Below, one piece after another: positions 14,366 to 51,671 of a DNA stretch of 64,000 nt. The notes under the pieces were generated by a model, which saw only the letters and a list, made by a program, of their open reading frames with translations, did no database searches and was not told where the DNA came from. Within the stretch, counting starts at the first letter, position 1, and each line of letters starts with the position of its first letter. The DNA is from Hyphomicrobium sp. (lineage in GTDB: Bacteria > Pseudomonadota > Alphaproteobacteria > Rhizobiales > Hyphomicrobiaceae). A program made the position numbers and the translations under genes. The stretch is from the NCBI GenBank assembly GCA_025351425.1, contig JANXVY010000050.1, positions 1 to 64,000 on the forward strand, given 5' to 3'.

Positions 14366-14830
14366 TCAGGCGAGGAACTTCGCGATCACTGCGTCCGCTT
14401 TGAGGCTTTCAAGATCGTTCTCGGTCGGCAATTGGGGTTTGTCGCGCTGGGCGTCGACCATGCACAGGAAGCCAAGCGGGACGTCTGGGCCAGCGCGAAA
14501 CTGATGCCATGTCATCGGGGGTACGGTCACGAGGTCGTTTTGCAACAGGGCGACGACGCGGTCGCCGACGAGTGCCTGGCCGCCGCCGCGCAGAATGAGG
14601 ACCGCGTGCACGTGCTCGTGGCGCTCAAGCGTCGAATGGCCGCCGGGGGCGACCTCGAAATAGCGCAGCTCGCCCGCGATGTCGGGGCGTGAAAACAGGG
14701 TTTGGCGCGAGATGTCCTTGAACAGCGCGCGTTCGTCTTCTTTGTAGGGCTTGTGCTCGACGCCTTCCCATCGGTGGCCGTCGGGCGTGGGCATAAAGGC
14801 GCGGTGGGGTTTGTCTTCAGGGTGGGTCAT
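14366..14830 (-). CDS. Cupin domain protein
   Basis: 154 residues from ATG 14830; upstream codons in frame look non-coding. A single conserved beta-barrel cupin: the metal-binding box G-G-H-S-T-L-E-R-H-E-H-x-H (about 70-85) and second box near W-H-Q-F (about 118). Cupins of this size are enzymes or sugar/acid-binding proteins of many functions. It lies downstream of the RuBisCO-like gene on the same strand, 135 bases away, so the two may act in one pathway, for example as isomerase or epimerase; that is inference. Confidence 0.82.
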   Translation of the reverse strand: MTHPEDKPHRAFMPTPDGHRWEGVEHKPYKEDERALFKDISRQTLFSRPDIAGELRYFEVAPGGHSTLERHEHVHAVLILRGGGQALVGDRVVALLQNDLVTVPPMTWHQFRAGPDVPLGFLCMVDAQRDKPQLPTENDLESLKADAVIAKFLA

Positions 14831-14965
14831 GGTCTCGATTTGAATACGCGTTTTCGGTTTCGCATTGCTGCGGCAACGTTGTCTGCCGGGGGCGGGCAAG
14901 TCCGTAATTGGCCGCATCGCAATACGCGTTGGCGCGCAGGCTAGCCCAAACGAGCGGCTGCGTCG

Positions 14966-16111
14966 TCACCGATATGGGAACGTCTCAACCGCGCACTGAA
15001 AGGCATTGGCTTGGGCCGTGATCTGGGTGCGCGCCGCCAGCAGGTCGCCGCCGATCAGCAGCATGGCATTCGTGCCGTAGGTTCCGAGGATTTCGGGAAT
15101 CCGCTCGAGTTTCATGCCACCGGCCGGCACCGGCAGGCTGGACTTGATACCGGGGCAGGGTGCGAGTGCTGCCGCGGCGATTTCCTTGCAGGTCTCAGTC
15201 GAATAGCCAAAGCGTCCGCCGACGTTGGGATAGATGATGCCATCGGCCCCGATCATGCGGAACAGCTGGCCGAGCAGGACCGCCGGCGCTATGCGGGCCG
15301 CGCCTGCCATCGCCGGGTGCGCGATGAAGGCCATATCTTCATTCCCGGCAACGAGTGCCTGGAAGGATGCCAGTCCGACGATCATCGGGGCGATGAGCAC
15401 GGTGTCGAGGCCATGGTCGCGGGCGACGCGCACCTGATGGCGCAACGCATCGAGGTTGCCGCTGAGGCTCGGCAGATAGTGCGTGGCTTTACCGGTCGAA
15501 CTGGCGGCCTTGTCAATTGCGCACGAGATGGCCTTGACGCGGGCCTCGAACGGCGCGCGGGCCTGATCGGCCAAGCCGTGATCGTCTTTGATATAGTCCA
15601 ATCCGCCGAGCGCTAAGCGGTGCGCCAGATCGGCGAGCTGCTCGACGGCAAGGCCTTGGGGTTTCAGGGCCGAGCAGGTGAGCGCACGCGACGTGGCGCG
15701 GACTCGGGCTCGCAAGCCCTCGGGCCCATGGCGGGGGCCGCTGAAGCGGGAGCTGAGGATGGTGGGAATGACGACGCCGGCAAGCGTTACGTCGTCGTGG
15801 ATCGAGGTGTTGCCAAACAGAATGTTGAGCAACTGCCCGGCTTCGAAGCCCGTCGTTTCCACGTTGAGTGCGATAATGGCGTCAAAGGTGCCGTCGCCGC
15901 GGTCGGTAATCCCTTCGACCTGGCCGACGATGTCGCGCAGCACACACGCGTCATCCACGGCGGCGACGGGCATTTCTATGCTCTGTTCGACGGCGATGGC
16001 GAGCGCACGGTCTTTGATCTGATCGGCAGTGGTGCGAATGCGGTAGATGGCCTGAAGTTTCGGCGTCACGGGCAGATCGCACCTCGTTAATTCAAGCCGC
16101 TCCAGGTTCAC
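14966..16111 (-). CDS. RuBisCO-like protein (form IV large-subunit homologue)
   Basis: 381 residues, shorter than true RuBisCO (about 475). The C-terminal barrel keeps recognisable landmarks: A-L-K-P-Q-G at 148 (K175 region of RuBisCO), G-L-D-Y-I-K-D-D-H at 170-178 (the carbamylated-lysine K-D-D-E motif with Glu changed to His), H-Y-L-P at 211, A-H-P-A-M-A at 264 (in place of H-R-A-M-H) and I-G-G-D near 362. Loop 6, normally G-K-L, reads G-G-R-F-G-Y at 298. These changes rule out a carboxylase and point to a form IV enolase/isomerase-type enzyme. Neighbouring cupin gene on the same strand. The reaction is unknown; sulfur salvage and sugar-acid pathways are known for relatives. Confidence 0.88.
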   Translation of the reverse strand: MNLERLELTRCDLPVTPKLQAIYRIRTTADQIKDRALAIAVEQSIEMPVAAVDDACVLRDIVGQVEGITDRGDGTFDAIIALNVETTGFEAGQLLNILFGNTSIHDDVTLAGVVIPTILSSRFSGPRHGPEGLRARVRATSRALTCSALKPQGLAVEQLADLAHRLALGGLDYIKDDHGLADQARAPFEARVKAISCAIDKAASSTGKATHYLPSLSGNLDALRHQVRVARDHGLDTVLIAPMIVGLASFQALVAGNEDMAFIAHPAMAGAARIAPAVLLGQLFRMIGADGIIYPNVGGRFGYSTETCKEIAAAALAPCPGIKSSLPVPAGGMKLERIPEILGTYGTNAMLLIGGDLLAARTQITAQANAFQCAVETFPYR

Positions 16112-29176: not shown

Positions 29177-29220
29177 CGAAGGGCGGTCGCCCCGACGTTT
29201 GGCCATCTGGCCGCCCTTCG
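29177..29220 (+). promoter_or_regulatory. Intercistronic stem-loop, sgaA-mcl
   Basis: CGAAGGGCGG (29177-29186) pairs perfectly with CCGCCCTTCG (29211-29220). The 24-base loop holds a smaller palindrome GGCCATCTGGCC. No T-run follows, so it is more likely an RNA-processing or stability element than a full terminator. Confidence 0.6.
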
Positions 29221-29306
29221 CAACAGCGCCTAGTCACATTCGCCCGGCTGCTTTCAGAGTGCCGTCACGGCGCTTCATGGCATCAAAAAAAGATGAGGAA
29301 ACCCCG

Positions 29307-30266
29307 ATGAGCTACACGCTTTATCCCCTTCGCAAGTCCCGCCTGCAGCGCTCGTATCTCGCTGTACCCGGTTCGAATCCGACCATGATCGATCGCGCCA
29401 TCAAGAGCGCTGCCGACTACGTGTTCCTCGATTGCGAGGATGCGGTTGCGCCGCCCGAAAAGGAGCAGGCCCGCAAGAACATCATCCAGGCGCTCAACGA
29501 TCTCGACTGGAAGGGCGCCGGCAAAAGCGTCTCGGTGCGCATCAACGGCCTCGACACCCATTACATGTACCGTGACGTGGTCGACATCATGGAACAGGCG
29601 GGCGCCAAGCTCGACACGATCCTGATCCCTAAGGTCGGCGTGCCTGCCGACGTCTATACGGTCGAATGCATCGTGAGCCAGATCGAAGTCGCCAAGGGCC
29701 TCAAGAACACCGTGGGCACCGAAGCCCTCATCGAAACGCCGCTCGGCATGGCCAACGTCGAAGCCATCGCTTCCGCCAACAGCCGGCTTGAATCGATGCA
29801 CTTTGGCGTCGCCGACTATGCCGCTTTCAACAAGGCCCGCACCGTTGTCATCGGCGGCCTCAACCCCGACTATCCCGGCGACCAGTGGCATTTCGCCCTC
29901 TCGCGCATGACGGTCGCCTGCCGCGCCTTCGGCTTGCGCCCAATCGACGGCCCGTTTGGCGGCATCGACGATCCGGAGGGCTACACGGCCGGCGCCAAGC
30001 GCGCTGCGGCACTCGGCGTCGAGGGCAAGTGGGCGATCCATCCTTCGCAGATCGAACTTGCCAACGCGGTGTTCTCGCCGACGGCTGCTGAAATCAATAA
30101 AGCCGAGCGCATCCTCGTGGCGCTGAAGGAAGCCGAAGCCCAGGGCAAGGGGGCGGCCTCGCTCGATGGCAAGATGATCGATGCGGCCTCCGAGAAAATG
30201 GCCAACAACCTGCTCGCGACCGCAAAGGCCATCAAGGCAGCGGACGCCATGCGCGCCAACGGCTGA
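29307..30266 (+). CDS. mcl: L-malyl-CoA lyase
   Basis: 319 residues from ATG 29307, preceded by GAGGAAA. HpcH/HpaI-CitE-type lyase cleaving malyl-CoA to acetyl-CoA and glyoxylate, the last step of the serine cycle. L-A-V-P-G-S-N-P-T near 20, [14 protein letters not shown] near 39-52, the [13 protein letters not shown] segment near 81, [11 protein letters not shown] near 108, and I-D-G-P-F-G plus G-K-W-A-I-H-P-S-Q near 215-250 all match malyl-CoA lyases. Gene order sgaA-mcl-mtkA-mtkB-ppc supports the lyase over CitE or methylmalyl-CoA-only roles. Confidence 0.95.
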
Positions 30267-31536: not shown

Positions 31537-32436
31537 ATGGCAATTCTGATCGACGAGAACACGCCGGTTCTCATTCAAGGCTTCACCGGGCGCATCGGCA
31601 CGTTTCACGCCCAGGAAATGATCGACTACGGCACCAACGTGGTCGGCGGGGTCACGCCCGGCAAGGGTGGCGCGACGCATCTGGGCCGGCCGGTGTTCAA
31701 CACCGTCAAAGGTGCCGTGGCCGAGACGGGTGCTACCGCCTCCATCGTATTCGTGCCGCCGCCGTTCGCGGCGGATGCGATCATGGAAGCCGCCGATGCC
31801 GGCATCAAGTACTGCACGTGCATCACGGATGGCATTCCGGCGCAGGACATGATCCGCGTGAAGCGCTACATGCGCCGCTACAGGGCGGAAAACCGGATGA
31901 TCCTGACGGGGCCCAACTGTGCGGGCACGATCTCGCCGGGCCGGGCTATGCTGGGCATCATGCCGGGCAACATCTATTCCAAGGGCCGCATCGGCATTGT
32001 CGGCCGCTCGGGCACGCTTGGCTATGAAGCGGCAAGCCAGCTGAAAATGCTCGGGCTCGGTGTCTCGACGTCGGTCGGGATCGGCGGCGATCCGATCAAC
32101 GGTTCGTCGTTCAAGGACATCCTCGTCCACTTCGAAAACGATCCCGATACCGACGCCATTTTGATGATCGGGGAAATCGGGGGGCCGCAGGAAGCCGAAG
32201 CCGGCATGTTTGCGCGCGACCACATGAAGAAGCCGCTCGCCGCTTATATCGCAGGCCTTTCGGCGCCCAAGGGCCGCAAGATGGGCCATGCGGGGGCGAT
32301 CGTGTCGGCGTTCGGGGAGTCGGCTGCGGAAAAGGTCGATATCCTCAAGGGTTGCGGCGTGCATATCGTGGCGACGCCTGCCGAAATGGGCTCGACGCTC
32401 ATGACGCTCGTGTCAGGTGCGAAAAAGGTGGCTTAA
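31537..32436 (+). CDS. mtkB: Malate-CoA ligase (malate thiokinase) alpha subunit
   Basis: 299 residues, SucD-like. CoA-binding N-terminus with Q-G-F-T-G-R-I-G-T-F-H near 15 and V-T-P-G-K-G-G near 42; G-P-N-C-A-G-T-I-S-P near 122; V-G-R-S-G-T-L-G-Y-E near 150. The phospho-histidine region is K-M-G-H-A-G-A-I near 248, where His is the active-site residue phosphorylated during catalysis. Tight 15-base spacing from mtkA fits equal production of the two subunits. Together they form the malate activation step feeding malyl-CoA lyase. Confidence 0.94.
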   Translation: MAILIDENTPVLIQGFTGRIGTFHAQEMIDYGTNVVGGVTPGKGGATHLGRPVFNTVKGAVAETGATASIVFVPPPFAADAIMEAADAGIKYCTCITDGIPAQDMIRVKRYMRRYRAENRMILTGPNCAGTISPGRAMLGIMPGNIYSKGRIGIVGRSGTLGYEAASQLKMLGLGVSTSVGIGGDPINGSSFKDILVHFENDPDTDAILMIGEIGGPQEAEAGMFARDHMKKPLAAYIAGLSAPKGRKMGHAGAIVSAFGESAAEKVDILKGCGVHIVATPAEMGSTLMTLVSGAKKVA

Positions 32437-32458
32437 TTCAGCGGGGAGCGGGGCAATC

Positions 32459-32486
32459 CCTCTCCCCATCCCGCGACGGGGAGAGG
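32459..32486 (+). promoter_or_regulatory. Stem-loop sequestering the ppc ribosome-binding site
   Basis: CCTCTCCCC (32459-32467) pairs perfectly with GGGGAGAGG (32478-32486). The 3' arm is the purine-rich Shine-Dalgarno candidate nine bases before the ppc ATG, so folding would hide it. The arms share sequence with the mcl-mtkA stem. Confidence 0.65.
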
Positions 32487-32495
32487 CAGACATCC

Positions 32496-35372
32496 ATGAA
32501 CGAGCAAGTGAAGCCTTCAGCCGCTCAGCCTGCCGCGCTCGACGAGCTCGCCTTGCGCGAGCAGTTGCGCCAGATGCGCACGCAAATTCCCGATCAGCCC
32601 AATCTCAACCCGATCGTGAACGTCGCTTTCGACCTGTCGCGGCGGCTCGAGGGTGGCGAGATCTCGATGGTCGATCTCAGAGCGCTGGCAAGCCGCCTGA
32701 TGGACCGCGCCTGCACGCAGCGTGCCCGCCGGCTGCGCGCCCGCATCGGCTTTACCGATAGCCAGGCGACGCTCAAGGATTTCATGGAAGGCATCGATGC
32801 GACGGCCAATACGGCGGTCGATGGCGACCTCGGCTTTGCCCAGTTCAAGGAACGCTGGGAGCGCGCGCGCTCAGGGATCGTGCTGACGGCGCATCCGACG
32901 TTCGGCGTCTCCGAAGCGCTCTCGCGGCACATGGTCGAATTGGCGACCGCCAACGATGCGCACGACATTGCCGGGATCGGCCATGCCCATCGTCCCGACG
33001 ACGGCATCGACCTGACCTACGAGCACGGCTGCGCGCAGGAAACCATAGCGAACCTGCGCAACGGATATTCCGATTTGCTGAACGCGTTCTTTTCGGCAGC
33101 GGCCAACCGGTTCGGCGAACGCGCCTATACGCTGAAGCCCAAGCTCACCTCGATGGCGTCCTGGGTCGGCTACGACCTGGACGGGCGGACGGACATTCCC
33201 TGGTATCGCTCCTATCAGATCCGCATCCAGGAAAAGCGCGCAGGCCTCATCGACGTACGCGAGCGGTTCCTAGCGCTCAAGCACCGGTTGGGCGATGCGC
33301 CCGACACCCAACGGCTTTCGCGACAGATCACAGGCAAGCTCGACCTCGCCATTGCGTCCGTCGACGAGCAGGTTCGCGCACTCGCCAATATGGGGCCGGA
33401 TGCCACGGCGTTGCCGCGCGTCGCCAACGTGCTCGCGCGCACCGACAACTACAATCTGACGTCCACTGCGCCGCTGACCACGCTCTTCGACGAACTGACG
33501 GCGACCATCGAAACACCCCAGCTGAAGCGCGCCATGGCGACGTTCTCGGGGCTCGTCGAGGCGACGGGGCTTGGCACCGCGCACATCCATCTCCGCATCA
33601 ACGCCCAGCAGCTGAACAACGCCTTCCGCGCCTATGTGCATGAGCCGTGGACGCGCGATTTGTCTGAACGGCAGGCGCTGGCCCGCATCGTCGAGATGAT
33701 CCGGACGTGTCCGAGCGAAAGCGTCAACTTCGGTTCGCTGGAGCTGGAGACCGCGACCGCCATCCGCCAGTTTGGCCTCATCGCGCAAATCCAGAAGCAC
33801 GTCGATGCCGAGACGCCGATCCGGTTCCTCATCGCGGAATGCGAGAGCCCGGCAACCGTGTTGATCGCGGTCTTTTTCGCCAAGTTGTTCGGCGTCGAGA
33901 AGATCGTCGACATCTCGCCGCTGTTTGAAACGCCGGCCGGCCTTGAAGGCGGCGCGCGGCTCATGGAGCGGCTGCTGGATGAGGAAGCCTATCGCGACTA
34001 CGTGAAGGGCCGCGGGCGGCTGTCGATGCAGACCGGATTTTCGGATGCGGGACGTTTCATCGGTCAGATTTCGGCGTCGATTGCGATCGAGCGGTTGCAG
34101 CAATCGATTGCCGAGATGATGCACAAGGCGGGGCTCAGCGACGTCGAGTTCCTGATGTTTTCGACCCACGGCGAGAGCATCGGCCGCGGCGCGCATCCAG
34201 GTGATCTGAAAACGCGCCTGCATTACGTCTTCCCCGACGAATCGCGGCTACGGTTCGCTAATCATGCGATCCCCGTGAAGCACGAGACGAGCTTCCAGGG
34301 CGGCGACGGCTTCATGTTCTTTGGCAACCGTCCGCTGACTGCGCGGGCGATGGCGACCATCATTCTGGATGCCCACCGCGAGCCGGTGGCGGGTGATCCG
34401 TTCTATGCCGACCAAAACCTGTCGCTCGATTTCTTCCTGCGGCTGCGCGCCTACCAGCAGGCGCTGTTTGGCCACGACGGCTATCGCGCTGTGCTGGGGG
34501 CGTTCGGCTCCAGCTTGCTGTTCAAGACCGGATCGCGCGCGGTGAAGCGCCAAAGCGACGGCGCCAGCGTGCACGACCGGGGCGACCCGTCGCGCATGCG
34601 GGCCATTCCCAACAACGCGATCCTCCAGCAGTTCGGCTACATCGCCAACGTCGTCGCGGGGCTGGGGGCGGCCGTCGGCTCCGACAAGGAGCGCTTCATC
34701 GCGCTCGCCAAACGCTCGGCGCGGCTTTCGACGCTGCTCGAAATGATTGCGGCGGGCAAGCGGCTGTCGTCGCTCAACGCGATGGGCGCCAACGCGATGG
34801 TGTTTGATCCGGGCTTTTGGGCCTCGCGCGCGTCGTGGGGCCGGGAAGAGGCGCTGCAACCGGCGTTCCGGCTGCTGTCCAGCACGTTGCTCGACGACGA
34901 GCGCGCGACCAGCATCAACCGCCTGGTGCATCATCTGCGGCTCGACAGCATCGACCTCCACGCCATCATGACGGAAGTCGGCTACGGCAACGTCAACCAG
35001 CTCGATGAAGCCCGGCTGGAGCTCGACGTGCTGCAGGCGATCCGTCTGGCGCTGATCATGCGGGTGTTCATCCTGGCCGCCCAGCTGCCCCGGTTTTCGC
35101 CGCAGAACGATACCAGCCCGACGCAGATCCTGGGCCGCGCGCTATCGCTGGACGTGCCGGAAGTCATCGCGTTCATGCGGCAGGCATTCCCGCACCGCGT
35201 GTCCGCCGCGGTCGATGCGGCAAGCTACGACGAGAAGGCGACCTACCGTCCGCGCGGGATCGACGATTACGGCCGGCTCGAGACCGAAATCCTGGGGCCG
35301 ATGGAAACGGCTTACGAGTTCATCCGCGAAATCGGCACCGGCATTTCGCATCACTTCGGGGCGTTCGGCTGA
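32496..35372 (+). CDS. ppc: Phosphoenolpyruvate carboxylase (divergent type)
   Basis: 958 residues from ATG 32496. Adds bicarbonate to PEP giving oxaloacetate, the CO2-fixing step of the serine cycle. The first catalytic His is in V-L-T-A-H-P-T-F-G at 129-137 (E. coli enzyme: L-T-A-H-P-T-E). The second catalytic loop, normally H-G-R-G-G-T-I-G-R-G-G, is shortened to S-T-H-G-E-S-I-G-R-G-A-H at 556-567, and the C-terminus lacks the usual N-T-G ending. It is therefore an atypical member, although position after mtkB makes the role clear. Divergent PEPCs are known in methylotrophs. Confidence 0.88.
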   Translation: MNEQVKPSAAQPAALDELALREQLRQMRTQIPDQPNLNPIVNVAFDLSRRLEGGEISMVDLRALASRLMDRACTQRARRLRARIGFTDSQATLKDFMEGIDATANTAVDGDLGFAQFKERWERARSGIVLTAHPTFGVSEALSRHMVELATANDAHDIAGIGHAHRPDDGIDLTYEHGCAQETIANLRNGYSDLLNAFFSAAANRFGERAYTLKPKLTSMASWVGYDLDGRTDIPWYRSYQIRIQEKRAGLIDVRERFLALKHRLGDAPDTQRLSRQITGKLDLAIASVDEQVRALANMGPDATALPRVANVLARTDNYNLTSTAPLTTLFDELTATIETPQLKRAMATFSGLVEATGLGTAHIHLRINAQQLNNAFRAYVHEPWTRDLSERQALARIVEMIRTCPSESVNFGSLELETATAIRQFGLIAQIQKHVDAETPIRFLIAECESPATVLIAVFFAKLFGVEKIVDISPLFETPAGLEGGARLMERLLDEEAYRDYVKGRGRLSMQTGFSDAGRFIGQISASIAIERLQQSIAEMMHKAGLSDVEFLMFSTHGESIGRGAHPGDLKTRLHYVFPDESRLRFANHAIPVKHETSFQGGDGFMFFGNRPLTARAMATIILDAHREPVAGDPFYADQNLSLDFFLRLRAYQQALFGHDGYRAVLGAFGSSLLFKTGSRAVKRQSDGASVHDRGDPSRMRAIPNNAILQQFGYIANVVAGLGAAVGSDKERFIALAKRSARLSTLLEMIAAGKRLSSLNAMGANAMVFDPGFWASRASWGREEALQPAFRLLSSTLLDDERATSINRLVHHLRLDSIDLHAIMTEVGYGNVNQLDEARLELDVLQAIRLALIMRVFILAAQLPRFSPQNDTSPTQILGRALSLDVPEVIAFMRQAFPHRVSAAVDAASYDEKATYRPRGIDDYGRLETEILGPMETAYEFIREIGTGISHHFGAFG

Positions 35373-50483: not shown

Positions 50484-50487
<4 letters not shown>
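50011..50487 (+). CDS. Bactofilin (polymer-forming cytoskeletal protein)
   Basis: 158 residues from ATG 50011, preceded by GGGGGAAA. The beta-helix region (about 10-100) shows the regular G-x-x-x-G pattern: G-R-L-T-I-V-G-T-V-R-L-E-G-R-F-D-G-T-L, I-G-T-D-G-Y-L-M-G-E-V, S-A-I-V-E-G-E-L, as in bactofilins. The C-terminal third is a charged coiled coil, longer than in many relatives. Bactofilins polymerise without nucleotide and position cell-wall enzymes, which fits the RlpA-like divergent neighbour. Its TAA shares bases with the stop codon of the convergent metC-like gene. Confidence 0.87.

Positions 50488-51671
<1,184 letters not shown>

Follow-up and report, generated by a model that had tools for sequence, protein, structure and literature searches.

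The reactions of the MTA-isoprenoid shunt are in print for two purple bacteria, Rhodospirillum rubrum and Rhodopseudomonas palustris (PMC5893883), and the R. rubrum papers PMC3475740, PMC2597038 and PMC3490199 are cited in PMC6302742. In this route, a RuBisCO-like protein (RLP) of the DeepYkr clade is a 5-methylthioribulose-1-phosphate (MTRu-1-P) 1,3-isomerase, yielding 1-methylthioxylulose-5-phosphate (MTXu-5-P) and 1-methylthioribulose-5-phosphate at 3:1, and a cupin acts as a glutathione-dependent MTXu-5-P methylsulfurylase that forms DXP (PMC5893883). The same source reports in vivo tests of the R. palustris pair of RLP1 and cupin and in vitro tests of RLP1; methanethiol fell 4-to-5-fold when either rlp1 or the cupin gene was deleted, and MTXu-5-P built up in the cupin mutant. 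There, rlp1 and the cupin gene are RPA2169 and RPA2170, mtnP and mtnA are RPA4821 and RPA4820, a putative mtnD is also present, and RLP1 is placed at 53% to the R. rubrum RLP (PMC5893883). MtnA and Ald2 are listed as acting on both methylthio and 5-deoxy sugar phosphates, 5-deoxyribose-1-phosphate being among those of MtnA (PMC10986504). PDB entry 3qfw carries the title "Rubisco-like protein from Rhodopseudomonas palustris", and we infer that it is RLP1 (RPA2169) because RLP2 has a separate entry, 2qyg.

The RLP and cupin genes of the window

We refer to the whole stretch of DNA analysed, 64,000 nucleotides long, as the window. At 14966..16111 on its minus strand, a frame of 381 aa with a GTG start encodes an RLP that is a predicted MTRu-1-P 1,3-isomerase of the DeepYkr clade, on the basis of its PDB match, Pfam assignment, structural model and place in a tree. 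The protein scored 70.9 bits against Pfam RuBisCO_large (cut-off 30.1), for which it is the sole match in its own genome, and its predicted model had a mean pLDDT of 92.1; this length, Pfam score and model indicate that the frame is not a chance one. Residues 175-178 read K-D-D-H and residues 265-269 H-P-A-M-A, and loop 6 reads N-V-G-G-R-F-G with G-R-F aligned to the RuBisCO G-K-L, which puts Arg300 at the loop-6 lysine position. The residues named in the first-pass annotation (K-D-D-H with His178, H-P-A-M-A and the loop-6 G-G-R) are therefore correct, and the alignment bears out its description of a form IV RLP with metal-site and loop-6 residues unlike those of RuBisCO. A bona fide RuBisCO was ruled out by K-D-D-H and Arg300, as against Glu and Lys in rubisco_G018.

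The cupin gene follows at 14366..14917 (183 aa), and the reading frames and Pfam (Cupin_2, 38 bits, cut-off 27.2) confirm that a K-D-D-H RLP and then a same-strand cupin, as first described, are real and that both lie on the minus strand. The cupin is a predicted MTXu-5-P methylsulfurylase, based on its match to R. rubrum Rru_A2000, its conserved His and Cys residues and Pfam; no NCBIfam family was found for it at E 0.001. Its true start may be Met30 (14830), giving 154 aa, because the two best PDB matches start at cupin residues 35 and 47 and tblastn matches in relatives start between residues 3 and 50. The top PDB match was Rru_A2000 (3jzv, E 4e-52), with 84/147 positions identical (57%). 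Among 59 aligned cupins, His100, His102 and His104 were invariant in 58/58 rows with letters at these positions and His138 and Cys152 in 57/57, and Rru_A2000 has the equivalents of all five.

The RLP matched 3qfw best among PDB sequences (357 bits; runner-up 120 bits), and its model aligned with 3qfw at Z 49.1 and rmsd 1.3 over 350 residues with 49% identity, the next structure reaching Z 44.2. In the sequence alignment 177/361 positions were identical to the R. palustris protein, the motifs KDDH, HPAMAG and GGRF were common to both, and 21 of 22 listed active-site-region positions were equal, the exception being 297 (V vs Y). All 61 cupin-type rows aligned, and 3qfw, share K150, K175-D-D-H178, H265-P and G299-R-F. 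The first-pass annotation had called the substrate unassigned and suggested that the RLP-cupin pair may define a small pathway of its own. Identity of 49% to 3qfw leaves space for divergence, but the 21 shared active-site-region positions, the same partner cupin, whose invariant His and Cys agree, and the presence of mtnP and mtnA in the genome all speak against a distinct pathway, and we give this proposal very little credence. A substrate can instead be assigned from the motifs held in common with 3qfw and from R. palustris RLP1, an MTRu-1-P 1,3-isomerase that works with a cupin methylsulfurylase (PMC5893883). We suggest that the RLP and cupin of the window are very probably the MTRu-1-P 1,3-isomerase and MTXu-5-P methylsulfurylase of the MTA-isoprenoid shunt.

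Relatives, phylogeny and pathway genes

A scan of genome contigs with six search peptides gave 106 candidate stretches, of which 62 are relatives. A cupin match lies directly downstream of the RLP gene in 58/62, which upholds the view of the cupin as a genuine partner; the opposite outcome raised in the first-pass annotation, a cupin unlinked in all relatives, did not hold. The cupin match starts -103 to +91 bases from the RLP stop in 56/58 linked loci, and in the other two (L038 and L053) the RLP frame stops early. The four relatives lacking the cupin comprise two in which the contig ends inside the RLP gene (L056 and L059) and two that are distant at 37-38% (L052 and L054). A cupin is also beside the RLP in two genomes of the same family (G037 and G097) and on a Terrarubrum plasmid. 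K-D-D-H conservation across the 62 loci is in part a product of the search itself, in which DYIKDDHG was one of the six peptides; 3qfw, G037 and G097 do not carry this bias.

This linkage bears on a further alternative, in which the RLP isomerises 5-deoxyribulose-1-phosphate (from 5'-deoxyadenosine) to 1-deoxyxylulose-5-phosphate and the cupin handles the methylthio form only. The listing of both MtnA and Ald2 for methylthio and 5-deoxy sugar phosphates (PMC10986504) would suit it, as would an aldolase gene that adjoins mtnA in the same genome. However, the cupin is retained in 58 of the 62 relatives and the published reaction removes a methylthio group that is absent from 5-deoxy sugars, and the R. 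palustris rlp1 and cupin mutants have an MTA phenotype (PMC5893883); we consider this alternative very unlikely. The boldest reading left is that the window pair also accepts 5-deoxyribulose-1-phosphate and makes DXP directly.

In a maximum-likelihood tree of 76 rows, of the RuBisCO superfamily kind that the first-pass annotation had advised, 61 cupin-linked RLPs including those of the window and 3qfw formed one group (96/93). A second group (99/96) held 10 RLPs adjoining transketolase genes, with the Shinella zoogloeoides RLP, which has no transketolase, inside it, and the two groups together were separate from MtnW, OiaX and RuBisCO at 99/97. OiaX, MtnW and the Vibrio row are placed with less certainty, owing to long branches that were flagged in the tree that included those rows, and no starred small group surrounded the window RLP in the 76-row tree. 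It had also been considered that the protein might cluster at high identity with a characterised RLP: the clustering with 3qfw was found (96/93), but the identity is only 49%. Position 178 is Glu in MtnW, OiaX and RuBisCO and His in the 61 cupin-type rows; in the transketolase-type rows it is His in 9/10 and Asp in Vibrio, and position 176 is Glu for Asp in 3/10 (Vibrio KEDD; Ponticoccus and G099 KEDH).

Upstream of the window pair are a tRNA-Pro gene and a DUF2252 gene, and downstream is a DUF1499 gene on the opposite strand. With these as the nearest neighbours, the earlier observation that no methylthioribose genes adjoin the pair stands, and none would be expected there because rlp1/cupin and mtnP/mtnA are separate loci in R. 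palustris. Elsewhere in the genome, on other contigs that also differ from each other, are mtnA (TIGR00512, 414 bits, cut-off 279) and mtnP (TIGR01694, 305 bits, cut-off 275), and matches for dxs, dxr and O-acetylhomoserine sulfhydrylase were all above cut-off. No match to acireductone dioxygenase (MtnD) was found in the genome at E 0.001.

We considered mtnA co-occurrence as proof of the pathway and dropped it: an RLP of the window's clade occurs in 3/103 family genomes (G000, G037 and G097), with 15 more matching genomes at no more than 34% identity, and mtnA is in 95/103, so its co-occurrence says little. Among 18 chosen RLP-bearing genomes, 15 of the cupin type and three of the transketolase type (G099 and the genomes of L052 and L054), mtnA matched in 18/18 and was above cut-off in 17 (partial in G099), and mtnP matched in 18/18 and was above cut-off in 16 (just under in the L057 genome, far under in the L054 genome). 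These matches are consistent with the shunt and do not discriminate.

Contig C25 of the genome holds a cluster (L094, 4999-8099) in which apt is followed after 770 bases by mtnA, and mtnA after 3 bases by a class II aldolase gene. The aldolase is the only Aldolase_II match in the genome; it scored 73.7 bits against mtnB, below the cut-off of 137, and its best score, 246 bits, was for L-fuculose-phosphate aldolase, just under the cut-off of 264. We read it as ald2-like because its gene adjoins mtnA, and for the same reason the RLP is maybe not the only route. The group probably represents a DHAP shunt alongside the MTA-isoprenoid shunt, a gene set resembling that reported for R. palustris.

Elsewhere in the window, a CitE/malyl-CoA-lyase-like gene (29199-30266) and a gene for a PEP-carboxylase-domain protein (32352-35372; 62 bits vs 815 for the standard NCBIfam model) are compatible with a methylotroph and the serine cycle. 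A cystathionine beta-lyase gene (50484-51671, minus strand; 512 bits, cut-off 366) belongs to methionine metabolism and is far from the RLP-cupin pair.

In the proposed shunt, MtnP would convert methylthioadenosine to 5-methylthioribose-1-phosphate and MtnA would convert this to MTRu-1-P, both enzymes being encoded elsewhere in the genome. The RLP would then move the carbonyl along the chain by 1,3-isomerisation to give MTXu-5-P, with the RuBisCO barrel supplying Lys150, Lys175 and the K-D-D-H loop as the presumed catalytic elements. The cupin, with a metal probably held by His100, His102, His104 and His138 and perhaps with use of Cys152 and glutathione, would strip the methylthio group to leave 1-deoxy-D-xylulose-5-phosphate and a methanethiol equivalent. 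The former would enter isoprenoid synthesis through Dxr, and the latter would return to methionine through O-acetylhomoserine sulfhydrylase. The gene pair, its family membership, the conservation of its residues and the other pathway genes in the genome are established, and we infer that the window RLP and cupin carry out the reactions reported for R. rubrum and R. palustris; identities of 49% (RLP) and 57% (cupin) are no proof of the same substrate.

A sister clade beside transketolase genes

In the sister clade, the RLP gene comes directly after transketolase genes, the N and C halves (TK-N and TK-C) being two genes; G099 has one fused 669-aa transketolase gene with all three transketolase domains. 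Loci of this kind are L054 (5013-11128), L097 (3694-9125) and likewise L098-L100 and L104, with variants in L101, L103, L052 and L096, the last with a fused transketolase. No cupin match was found in the eleven transketolase-clade loci searched, and the RLPs of L052 and L054 were under the MtnW cut-offs.

Plasmid records show this arrangement. In 19 of 20 plasmid records with an RLP at least 60% identical to that of L054, a matching transketolase C lies immediately upstream on the same strand with 2-11 bases separating the two matches, the exception without a transketolase being Shinella zoogloeoides; the 20 records are not independent because six are Ensifer adhaerens. The next four records (35-40%) have transketolase C in three (Ponticoccus and two Vibrio nigripulchritudo) and the cupin in Terrarubrum. 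Five of these regions, from Rhizobiaceae and Devosiaceae plasmids (Pararhizobium, Mariluticola, R. rosettiformans, Ensifer sp. PDNC004 and Shinella WSC3-e), were examined; each has a divergently oriented sugar ABC transporter followed by mtnK, mtnA, TK-N, TK-C and RLP, and HMM searches found mtnK and mtnA in L054. The Ponticoccus order is purine-nucleoside phosphorylase, amidohydrolase, mtnA, molybdopterin oxidoreductase, TK-N, TK-C and RLP. In V. nigripulchritudo the genes are those for TK-N, TK-C, RLP and an FGGY kinase, and the annotation of that stretch shows neither mtnK nor mtnA.

We tentatively put at slightly under an even chance that the transketolase-linked clade is an undescribed branch of methylthioribose/5-deoxyribose catabolism, with transketolase in the place of the cupin. 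In such a branch the product of the RLP would be a 1-substituted xylulose-5-phosphate (MTXu-5-P or DXP), which the dedicated transketolase would cleave between C2 and C3. This would release glyceraldehyde-3-phosphate and a two-carbon unit, and methanethiol may leave the latter on the thiamine cofactor. Counting against this reading, no mtnK or mtnA was found beside the RLP in L052 and G099, where part of the neighbouring frames was scanned, nor is either annotated in V. nigripulchritudo; mtnA matches lie elsewhere in the L052 and G099 genomes. The KEDD of Vibrio, the KEDH of Ponticoccus and G099 and the non-independence of the plasmid records also count against it.

Two further loci, in Marinovum algicola (L105, 175-6005) and Paracoccus seriniphilus (L106, 165-6005), have the same split transketolase (67%), adjoining an FGGY or xylulose kinase gene and a molybdopterin oxidoreductase gene, and neither stretch has an annotated RLP. 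There the transketolase may receive its substrate from the kinase in place of the RLP, and RLP and FGGY kinase could then be two ways to a 1-substituted xylulose-5-phosphate that transketolase cuts. No description of the transketolase-linked RLP branch was found in the literature searched, which took in few subscription journals, where it may be in print. If true, the transketolase partner would give the same intermediates another fate, and we find the sister clade more interesting than the window pair, itself ordinary.

Comparison with known systems

Among superfamily members with other functions, MtnW (DK-MTP-1-P enolase; Geobacillus 2oek/2oem, Bacillus 2zvi) has the RuBisCO-superfamily barrel, acts in the universal methionine salvage route and aligned with the window RLP at Z ~44; 2oek has KDDE and a loop-6 P-Y-G-S, whereas the window RLP has KDDH. 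An MtnW enolase was ruled out by NCBIfam scores of 157/409 and 110.7/513.6 bits (score/cut-off), by these residue differences and by the genome's lack of an acireductone dioxygenase match. OiaX (3-oxo-isoapionate-4-phosphate decarboxylase) is also a form IV member of the RuBisCO superfamily; it was ruled out at 53.1 bits against a cut-off of 700, and the window RLP is 24% identical to a plasmid OiaX.

R. palustris RLP1 and its cupin RPA2170 have the fold, residues and gene pair seen in the window, although RLP1 has diverged in sequence from the window RLP. The R. palustris mtnA and mtnP genes are side by side by gene number, in contrast to their location on different contigs here. The R. rubrum cupin Rru_A2000 has the invariant His and Cys in common with the window cupin along with the 84 identical residues, and the R. 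rubrum DeepYkr RLP is in the same clade as the window RLP by way of R. palustris RLP1 only. We are confident, on grounds of homology, that the window pair is a further case of an already published route, and it would extend this known form of methionine salvage, with methanethiol release and a feed to isoprenoids, to another bacterium. K-D-D-H together with the cupin would accordingly be a mark of the MTA-isoprenoid shunt described in R. rubrum and R. palustris, and not of an unknown route.
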